A DNA stretch of 40,953 bases. Source: Alienimonas chondri. Its GTDB lineage: Bacteria > Planctomycetota > Planctomycetia > Planctomycetales > Planctomycetaceae. The position numbers and the translations under genes were made by a program. The stretch spans positions 1 through 40,953 of the forward strand of contig NZ_WTPX01000029.1 in assembly GCF_013036045.1 (NCBI RefSeq), given 5' to 3'. Below the pieces are notes generated by a model. It saw only the letters and a program-made list of their open reading frames with translations. It ran no database searches and was not told the DNA's origin. This document shows, in pieces, positions 31,133-34,297 of this stretch (positions are counted from its first letter, which is position 1; every line of letters begins with the position of its first letter).

Positions 31133-31348
31133 GTGAGCGACCACGTCTACAAGAAGCTCGAACTCGTCGGCTCCTCCGAGACCAGCATCGAGGACGCCAT
31201 TCAGAACGCCGTCAACCGCTGCGGCCAGACCATCAAGGACATGCGTTGGTTCGAAGTGGTCGAGACCCGCGGCCACCTCGAGGACGGCAAGGTGCAGCAC
31301 TATCAGGTGACGATCAAAGTCGGCTTCACCATCGCCGAAAGTCGCTGA
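31133..31348 (+). CDS. Dodecin (flavin-binding storage protein)
   Basis: 71 aa from GTG 31133. It matches the dodecin family over its whole length: [40 protein letters not shown], then [20 protein letters not shown] and KVGFTIAE. W39 is the tryptophan that stacks on paired flavins, and Q58 ([10 protein letters not shown]) the glutamine that holds the ring. Dodecins assemble into hollow 12-mers that store or buffer riboflavin/FMN. It is 121 bp upstream of msrP on the same strand, so a link to the flavoprotein encoded there is possible. Confidence 0.93.
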
Positions 31349-31469: not shown

Positions 31470-32537
31470 GTGTCCCACGATCACGACGCCGATCCGGTCA
31501 CGCCGTATCCGGTGTATTTGAATCGGCGCCGGCTGCTGCAAGCCGGCGTGCTGGCCGGCAGCGCCGCGGCCACCGCGGGGCTGTACCGCCTCGGGACGAA
31601 CGGCGCCGCGGACGGCGACCTCGGGGCGGAGACGGAGAAGCTCGCCGGGTTGGATCGATCCGTCACGGAAACGCCGGAGGCTCCATCAACTCCCGCCACA
31701 GCCGGCGAGGAGCCGGAACCGCCGCCCGAAGAACCCGCGGAACTGACCGACGCCGAGCGGGCCGAACGCGGCTTCACGGTCGACGAGCCGCTGACCGAGC
31801 GCGTCGCCGCGCTGACTTATAATAACTTCTACGAGTTCACGACCGATAAGGCCGGCGTCGCGACGGTCGCGGCCGACTTCAAGACCGACGACTGGACGCT
31901 GGAAGTCGGCGGTTTGGTCGAGGAATCCCGCACCTTCACGCTGCCGCAGCTCAAAGCGCTGGCACCGTTGGAGGAGCGTATCTATCGGATGCGCTGCGTC
32001 GAGGCGTGGAGCATGGTGCTGCCGTGGGCCGGCATCCCCCTGTCCGCGTTGTTGGACGCCGTCCGCCCGACCGCCGCCGCGAAGTACGTCGCCTTTGAAA
32101 CGTTTTACGCCCCGGAGCGGATGCCGGGGCAGAGGACGAACGTGCTGGATTGGCCGTACGTCGAAGGGTTGATGCTCTCGGAGGCGCAGCATCCGCTCAC
32201 GTTGTTGGCGCTGGGGCTGTACGGCCGGGAGCTCGCCCCGCAGAACGGGGCGCCGGTGCGGTTGGTCGTGCCGTGGAAATACGGCTTCAAAGGGATCAAA
32301 TCGATTGTGAAGGTCACGCTGACGGATACGCAGCCGATCGCCACCTGGAACGAAGCGGCGCCGAACGAATATGGGTTCCTCGCCAACGTGAATCCGAACG
32401 TCGACCATCCGCGGTGGAGTCAGGCGACCGAGCGACGGATCGGCCTGCCGGGCCGACGGCCGACGCTGATGTTCAACGGGTACGCCGATCAGGTCGCCCA
32501 CCTTTATAACGGCATCGACCTGACGGAGATGTTTTGA
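31470..32537 (+). CDS. msrP: Periplasmic methionine-sulfoxide reductase, molybdopterin subunit MsrP
   Basis: Reduces oxidised methionines in envelope proteins using a molybdopterin cofactor. 355 aa from GTG 31470. A Tat signal ([20 protein letters not shown], about 17-36) directs export. The sulfite-oxidase fold begins near [13 protein letters not shown] (115-127), a clear MsrP/YedY motif. C176 in [11 protein letters not shown] ligates molybdenum. [22 protein letters not shown] and the [15 protein letters not shown] motif complete the family signature. Odd: a Pro/Glu-rich linker (about 66-95) separates the signal from the catalytic domain. The stop overlaps the TTG start of the next gene (TTGA), implying translational coupling. 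Confidence 0.94.
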
Positions 32538-34297
32538 GCGTTGCCAGCCCCTCGGTCGCCGCTCCCGGATCGGCCGGGCGGGACGCACCGGTGTTCGATG
32601 CGAAGTTTCTCAAGCTGCTGGCGACCCTGAATGGATTGGTGCCGCTGGCGCTGCTGATCTGGGATGCGACTCGGGGGAACCTCGGCGGCGATCCGGTGAA
32701 CGCGGCGCTGCACACCTCCGGGCTGACGTCGCTGATCTTTCTGCTGCTGTCGCTGGCCGTCACGCCGATTCGACTGCTTACCGGCTGGAACGCCGTGATC
32801 GCGGTGCGGCGGGCGCTGGGGCTGTTCGCATTTCTGTATGCGATCGTGCACGTCGTCGTGTATGTCGTGTGGGAGCGAGCGGGGATTCTCTCAAGCGTGT
32901 GGGACGAACTGCTCGCCCGCCGCTATCTGCAGGTCGGCGCCGTGGCCCTGGTGGCGATGGTTCCGCTGGCGGTCACCTCCACCGGCGGCATGATTCGGCG
33001 GATAGGGCCGGTCTGGTGGAAGCGGCTGCACCGCCTGGCGTATCTCTCCGCCGCCGCGGGCGTGCTGCATTTTTATATGCAGGTCAAAAGCGACGTGCGA
33101 TTGCCGCTCGCCTTCGCCGCCGTCCTGGGACTGCTGCTCGGCTTTCGGGCGATCAAGCACTACCGCGAACTGAAGATCGCCGCCGATGCGGCGACGGTCC
33201 CCGCGACCGTGGCCGCGACCGCCAAGTCGAAGCACTGGCGGGGACCGTTGAAGGTCGCCCGGATCTTCGAGGAGACGCCGGACGTCAAAACCTTTCGGCT
33301 GATCGCCCCCGACGGCGGCGATCTGCCGTTCGACTATGAGGCCGGGCAGTACCTCACCGTGTCGCTCCCGGTGCAGGTTCCCGGCGAGGGGGGCGTCGAC
33401 CAACCGGCGACGCTGCGGCGTCCCTATTCGATTTCGTCTTCGCCGACTCGCCGCGGGTTCTGCGAACTCACGGTGAAGCGCGATCCGAACGGTCTCGGCT
33501 CCCAGGCGCTGCACGACACGGTCGCCGAAGGCGATCTGCTGACCGTCGCCGGCCCGGCGGGGAAGTTCCTATTCGCCCCGGATCCCACCGCCGCGGGCGT
33601 GGTGCTGATCGCCGGCGGGGTGGGCGTCACGCCGATTCTGTCCCTCCTGCGATCGCTGACGGATCGTTCCTGGCCGGGGGAGATCTACGTGGCGAACGTC
33701 CAGAAGACCCGCGCGGATCGCATCGCCGAAGCGGAGCTCCGATCGCTCGCCGCACGATTCCCGAACGTGCATCTGCTGACGACGCTCACCCGTGAAGACG
33801 CCGACGGCGATGACGTGGCGGCCGGTCGGCTGACGGCGGAGCGACTCGCCGAATTTGTGCCGAATCTCAGCGACTTGCCGGTCTACCTGTGCGGCCCCGA
33901 GCCGATGATGGCGGCGACCCGCGACCTGCTGACGTCGCAGGGCGTCCCGCCGGAGCGGATCACGGTCGAGGAGTTCGTCGCCGGAGCGCCGCCCCAACAT
34001 TCGGAGGCCCACGAGGGCGACGCCCCCGTCGAGTCCGCGGCGATCGCCTTCTCACGATCGAACCTCACTGCCGCGGTCCCCGGCGAGACGACTGTCCTCG
34101 AAGCCGCCGAATCGGTCGGGGCGGCGATCCCCTACGAATGCCGATCCGGCATCTGCGGGCAGTGCAAGGTGCGGTGTACGGAAGGGGCGGTGACGATGGC
34201 CCACCGCGACGCCCTCAGCCAGAAAGAGGAACAGGCCGACTACATCCTCGCCTGTCAGGCCCGGGCGACGACGGCGTCCCTCACGATCGAGGCGTAG
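32534..34297 (+). CDS. MsrQ-ferredoxin reductase-ferredoxin fusion (electron donor to MsrP)
   Basis: 587 aa with three parts. Residues 25-210: a heme-binding MsrQ/ferric-reductase-like membrane domain, five or six TMs, with His at 60, 106, 166 and 179 as candidate heme ligands. Residues 235-485: FAD/NAD(P)H reductase, with [12 protein letters not shown] (296-306), GGVGVTP (361-367) and CGPEPM (453-458). Residues 503-587: plant-type [2Fe-2S] ferredoxin with C536, C541, C544 and C574 (C-x4-C-x2-C-x29-C). It probably passes electrons from cytoplasmic NAD(P)H across the membrane to MsrP. Standard MsrQ has only the first part (about 200 aa) and uses a separate flavin reductase. The start TTG 32534 overlaps the msrP stop. 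Confidence 0.9.

Follow-up and report, generated by a model that had tools for sequence, protein, structure and literature searches.

Alienimonas chondri carries a real, clade-wide and apparently undescribed variant of the MsrPQ system, in which MsrQ, an FAD/NAD(P)H reductase (FNR) and a plant-type [2Fe-2S] ferredoxin domain (Fer2) form one polypeptide encoded immediately downstream of msrP. The variant is seen in gene order, domains, ligand residues, conservation and co-inheritance with MsrP in the analyzed stretch of 40,953 nucleotides (hereafter, the window) and its relatives. The two genes probably make up a self-contained envelope-repair system, whereby electrons would flow from NAD(P)H through FAD, the [2Fe-2S] cluster, MsrQ heme and MsrP to methionine sulfoxide.

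Results

The msrP gene and the fusion gene

The msrP gene starts with GTG at 31470 and ends with the stop codon at 32535-32537, and its product passes the NCBIfam MsrP equivalog model NF003767 (429.5 bits vs. a cut-off of 207; Table 1). The initial sequence-only reading had assigned to this MsrP a Tat signal and the cysteine C176; the motif NRRRLLQ and C176 within RMRC were located accordingly, and in the alignment, NRRxxhh lies close to the MsrP N-terminus in many relatives. The window MsrP is predicted to reduce protein methionine sulfoxide. The gene 121 bp upstream encodes dodecin, a flavin-binding protein adjoining a flavin-dependent system; it has a counterpart in the same-genus genome G365 and none at the remaining fusion loci examined. 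Its membership in the msrP-fusion unit is possible. A larger conserved operon was considered and rejected: across loci, the msrP-fusion pair alone recurs.

The fusion gene starts with TTG at 32534 and overlaps the msrP stop codon as TTGA; both this overlap and the length of 587 amino acids agree with the initial reading. An alternative GTG start is present at 32591 (residue 20), and hence the first 19 residues are uncertain. The domain search that the same reading had proposed yielded Pfam matches to Ferric_reduct, FAD_binding_6, NAD_binding_1 and Fer2, and all motifs it had listed were found at the given residues, namely, RPYS at 296, GGVGVTP at 361, CGPEPM at 453 and the four Fer2 cysteines spaced C536-x4-C541-x2-C544-x29-C574.

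The full-length protein is 47% identical to proteins from two other genera. In a same-genus pair, amino acid identity is 65% for MsrQ, 78% for FNR and 73% for Fer2, above the 55-58% agreement of third codon positions, indicating that selection acts on all three parts. The four cysteines are invariant in 22 of 22 complete copies, and the heme residues and the main FAD/NAD motif residues are invariant or nearly so across the copies that reach them.

Table 1 Features of the msrP-fusion locus and of compared loci (positions in the window unless a locus is named).
Feature	Position	Strand	Basis
Dodecin (flavin-binding protein)	31133..31348	+	Pfam Dodecin, 107 bits
MsrP, periplasmic molybdenum methionine-sulfoxide reductase catalytic subunit, 355 aa	31470..32537	+	NF003767; Pfam Oxidored_molyb 136-292
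Twin-arginine (Tat-type) motif NRRRLLQ, MsrP residues 18-24	31521..31541	+	sequence
MsrP C176 in RMRC, predicted Mo-coordinating cysteine	31995..31997	+	position computed; role by analogy with E. coli MsrP
MsrQ-FNR-Fer2 fusion protein, 587 aa from TTG	32534..34297	+	Pfam, NCBIfam, homologue alignment
MsrQ domain, residues 20-215	32591..33178	+	NF003831; Pfam Ferric_reduct (63-176)
R92, TM3 arginine marking YedZ/MsrQ cores	32807..32809	+	invariant in alignments
H106, heme ligand position	32849..32851	+	invariant including E. coli MsrQ
H166, heme ligand position	33029..33031	+	invariant including E. coli MsrQ
H179, heme ligand position	33068..33070	+	invariant including E. coli MsrQ
FAD-binding domain, residues 240-345	33251..33568	+	Pfam FAD_binding_6
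NAD(P)-binding domain, residues 358-463	33605..33922	+	Pfam NAD_binding_1
Plant-type [2Fe-2S] ferredoxin domain, residues 512-579	34067..34270	+	Pfam Fer2, 62.2 bits
Verrucomicrobiota FRD-FNR-Fer2 fusion, upstream 531-aa protein (no Pfam match), cytochrome c gene (five CXXCH)	L227 6561-8279, 8291-9883, 9886-11925	-	
FNR-Fer2/membrane protein/heptaheme cytochrome c loci	L232, L233, L211, L215, L255, L256, L257, L258		

Identity of the membrane core

The membrane domain passes the NCBIfam MsrQ equivalog model NF003831 (146.3 bits vs. a cut-off of 130), and R92, H106, H166 and H179 are invariant in the alignment with MsrQ of E. coli, Deinococcus, Chloroflexota and Acidobacteriota. The heme histidines, on which the initial reading had made the novelty of the fusion depend, are present. 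According to the survey of ferric-reductase-type membrane domains (FRD), YedZ (MsrQ) proteins have an arginine in place of the first TM3 histidine, retain three histidines and are typically single-domain, whereas in the dehydrogenase-bearing long forms TM3 and TM5 contribute two heme histidines each, four in total (PMC3591440). In Pfam, the window protein shows the long-form order (FRD, then FAD and NAD(P) domains), but not the four histidines: with R92 at the first position and three histidines only, it combines the long-form layout with a YedZ-type core. By these sequence marks, the membrane domain is a genuine MsrQ, and it is predicted to pass electrons to MsrP.

Distribution of the fusion and linkage to msrP

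In an MsrQ-domain scan of 84,980 species genomes, the top eight matches were seven planctomycetes and one bacterial MAG, all fused and with MsrP upstream, one of them ending at a contig end ahead of Fer2. Among the 198 genomes of the class survey, 22 had MsrQ over the cut-off, and 20 of these were fused (17 complete copies and three cut by contig ends); the two genomes with unfused MsrQ belong to a single genus (g217). In each of the 20 fused copies, msrP precedes the fusion gene on the same strand (closely in 19, and at about 0.9 kb in G407), and every genome with an MsrP above 428 bits has MsrQ. The order survey (170 genomes) gave 20 genomes with the fusion, five with unfused MsrQ and one decayed copy. 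Altogether, the survey of MsrQ fusions in Planctomycetota for which the sequence-only reading had called identified at least 31 fused genomes; since unfused MsrQ occurs in two planctomycete genera, the fusion is not required. The decayed copy, in G397 (L242 2340-3884, minus strand), has its frame fragmented by in-frame TAG stops, and two of its four cluster cysteines are replaced by serine.

Outside the planctomycetes, MsrQ-bearing genomes numbered at least 188 of 398 in Pseudomonadota, 57 of 199 in Acidobacteriota and 48 of 201 in Chloroflexota, and no FNR or Fer2 part was detected at the MsrQ loci examined in Pseudomonadota (among the matches listed), Acidobacteriota and Chloroflexota. The possibility that the fusion is the common form of MsrQ in many phyla, which would have removed its novelty in the initial reading, is not borne out at these loci. 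Twenty long MsrQ frames among the listed Pseudomonadota matches were examined as candidate fusions and discarded, being transporter-MsrQ proteins or high-GC frames overlapping msrP, none of the 20 with FNR. In MamZ-like Pseudomonadota proteins of about 650 aa (L126-L130, L132, L133, L135-L139), a transporter-like N-terminal part precedes an MsrQ-like domain at the C-terminus; there was no msrP near them within the stretches examined.

About 20 planctomycete genomes (L108-L116, L192-L198) encode MsrP of a separate clade (314-391 bits, support 100). In these genomes no MsrQ match exceeded the limit, and none of the genes flanking this msrP is conserved; the adjoining genes are unrelated, and a partner sought among them was rejected.

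Evolution of the gene pair

In the MsrQ tree, the planctomycete domains, whether fused or not, make up a single group that includes a Limisphaerales MAG (100/99), beside Acidobacteriota MsrQ. The MsrP tree contains the same planctomycete group (support 94) with similar neighbors, including the Acidobacteriota group. Given the agreement of the two trees, msrP and the fusion gene appear to have been inherited together. The unfused MsrQ of genus g330 nests among fused ones (97/86), which suggests loss of the reductase half there. When more unfused forms were added to the MsrQ tree, a purely fused clade was rejected (p = 4.5 × 10−5) because unfused forms nest inside it. Trees of the FNR-Fer2 half shift with sampling: for a single origin of the fusion, the AU test in one tree gave p = 0.006, whereas better sampling gave one side of a 90/93 branch. 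One fusion with later losses and two fusions are both possible.

These comparisons bear on two alternative readings of the locus. That assembly or gene calling has united separate genes is refuted by the independent genomes carrying the fusion: an identical open frame is found in at least 31 genomes, single-contig assemblies among them, and purifying selection extends across all three parts, leaving an artefact with practically no probability. Somewhat less remote, though still very improbable and disfavoured, is an NAD(P)H-dependent ferric or oxygen reductase, i.e. a bacterial NOX/FRE long form, that adjoins msrP by chance. The domain order is that of bacterial long FRD forms plus Fer2, but the core is of the YedZ/MsrQ type, with the TM3 arginine and three histidines, as opposed to the four histidines given for long forms in PMC3591440; moreover, the MsrQ cut-off is passed, linkage to msrP is class-wide, and the MsrP and MsrQ trees agree.

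Predicted electron path

In the proposed repair system, a hydride from NADH or NADPH would be transferred to FAD in the cytoplasmic C-terminal half, and single electrons would pass from FAD to the fusion's own [2Fe-2S] cluster and on to the heme(s) in the membrane-embedded MsrQ part. The outer MsrQ heme would then reduce periplasmic MsrP, whose molybdenum center would reduce methionine sulfoxide of exported proteins. Cofactor occupancy, membrane topology, electron order, the choice between NADH and NADPH, and the substrate are the predicted elements of this scheme. We place the cluster in line between flavin and heme by analogy, because related FNR-Fer2 enzymes release electrons through the cluster and because no intact copy lacks it. 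Individual domains are modelled confidently by AlphaFold (mean pLDDT 82) but their mutual arrangement is not (pTM 0.52), so that the placement of Fer2 relative to heme is not read from the model. Foldseek matched SpNOX over the membrane and dehydrogenase parts, and phthalate dioxygenase reductase (2pia; flavin/NAD/2Fe-2S) over the C-terminal half.

The match to SpNOX also fits a NOX-like variant, in which FAD would reduce the inner heme directly, the accepted route in SpNOX and NOX, and the ferredoxin domain would be a side port to soluble ferredoxin partners. In FNR-Fer2 proteins of the 2pia, PaaE, Hcr and GbcB types, however, electrons normally exit via the cluster, and the full conservation of the four cysteines in all complete copies suggests an in-line role. 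We regard the NOX-like variant as unlikely, even though E. coli MsrQ is reduced by Fre, a separate enzyme of the FNR family, without a Fer2 domain (PMC11031084). Against the proposed scheme, E. coli MsrQ has also been tied to the quinone pool (PMC6211008). A further alternative concerns the substrate: the pair might reduce another periplasmic oxide, e.g. an N- or S-oxide, rather than protein methionine sulfoxide, given that DMSO and TMAO are in vitro substrates of MsrP-type enzymes (PMC6211008). The match to MsrP is, however, at the equivalog level, and next to the pair no transport or respiratory gene is conserved, which makes this alternative improbable. The sequence-only reading had further supposed that NAD(P)H would be coupled to envelope repair without free Fre. 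No Fre over the cut-off (NF005963) was indeed found in the fused genomes, but this is not specific: the result holds in 31 genomes, for fused and unfused relatives alike. The fusion itself scores 59 bits against this model (cut-off 230). Compensation by the fusion for an absent Fre was rejected, there being no contrast between fused and unfused genomes.

Comparison with known systems

The E. coli MsrPQ-Fre system shares with the window the protein families, the msrP-msrQ order, the heme ligand positions and the principle of an NAD(P)H-flavin donor (PMC11031084), but its MsrQ, of about 211 aa, is unfused, and Fre is a separate general enzyme without an iron-sulfur domain. SpNOX and the long FRD forms likewise carry a membrane heme domain and, after it, an FAD/NAD(P)H dehydrogenase on the same polypeptide. 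SpNOX, however, lacks a ferredoxin domain, and the cores of the long forms carry four heme histidines, in contrast to the MsrQ/YedZ core of the window with its TM3 arginine and its gene paired with msrP. A catalogued architecture, model M8 of Zhang et al. (2013), combines a ferric-reductase-type membrane core with Fer2, as the fusion does; the available text of that source neither assigns M8 to the MsrQ/YedZ type nor ties it to MsrP (PMC3591440).

Phthalate dioxygenase reductase, PaaE, Hcr and GbcB have flavin, NAD and C-terminal plant-type [2Fe-2S] domains in the same order, and the C-x4-C-x2-C-x~29-C pattern of such reductases is present in the fusion. Unlike the reductase half of the fusion, which is joined to a membrane cytochrome, they are soluble and serve oxygenases or Hcp, and the fusion falls below the respective NCBIfam cut-offs (Hcr, 183 vs. 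383 bits; PaaE, 176 vs. 421; GbcB, 174 vs. 500). A Verrucomicrobiota FRD-FNR-Fer2 protein (L147) shares the domain order but differs in its FNR, which is nearest Hmp (263 bits), and in its core, which scores 76 bits as MsrQ (cut-off 130); its genome gave no match to MsrP. Two genes away from the Verrucomicrobiota fusion, which is apparently independent in origin, there is a multiheme cytochrome c gene.

Relatives of the reductase half

On plasmids, the FNR-Fer2 half is best matched (40-44% identity; Methylocystis, Rhizorhabdus, Legionella and Spirosoma) by the C-terminal regions of proteins about 525-677 aa long. Plasmid, planctomycete and verrucomicrobial FNR-Fer2 homologues adjoin members of a family of roughly 250-aa membrane proteins that have conserved histidines and share 33-60% identity across phyla (the copy in Legionella is short); the four tested have no Pfam match. 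In five of five loci checked, a cytochrome c is encoded next to the membrane protein, and it has exactly seven CXXCH motifs. The cluster of FNR-Fer2, membrane protein and heptaheme cytochrome c was observed in planctomycetes, Verrucomicrobiota, Alphaproteobacteria, Spirosoma and Legionella; it is possibly a separate, undescribed NAD(P)H-driven electron-export system. This adjacency supports heme proteins as the putative natural acceptors of the FNR-Fer2 module. In a separate case, an 842-aa planctomycete protein (L235 2164-4689, minus strand) combines a 4Fe-4S part and an SCP2 domain with FNR-Fer2, reusing the same reductase module.

More tentatively, FNR-Fer2 may be a module repeatedly plugged into transmembrane heme systems to supply electrons from NAD(P)H, attached to MsrQ in planctomycetes, to an independent FRD near a multiheme cytochrome in Verrucomicrobiota, and acting in trans, across several phyla, with the membrane protein rich in conserved histidines and heptaheme cytochrome c. 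In every case the cluster would then lie in line, between flavin and heme, adding a step that NOX and E. coli MsrPQ lack.

Discussion

MsrQ, FNR and Fer2 are each known, and the domain order FRD plus Fer2 was already catalogued in 2013 (PMC3591440). The sequence-only reading had taken the extra iron-sulfur domain as a step foreign to the standard system. It is absent from the E. coli system, but an FRD core with Fer2 is model M8 of the same source, and the domain order itself is not new. The apparent novelty lies in a YedZ/MsrQ-type core of an FNR-Fer2 fusion, clade-wide and tied to MsrP. The searchable MsrQ/NOX literature, a scope that leaves out the 2017 and 2021 MsrQ-Fre papers and the 2004 YedZ-fusion paper, contained no MsrP-linked MsrQ-FNR-Fer2 protein.

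The source of electrons for MsrQ in E. coli, quinone pool or Fre, has been argued, and a covalently attached donor in one lineage suggests that the electrons come from NAD(P)H. With a single protein, the whole path becomes measurable, including the proposed step through a cluster that would link flavin to heme. The fusion also shows that the MsrQ core resembles that of NOX in having become joined to a dehydrogenase.
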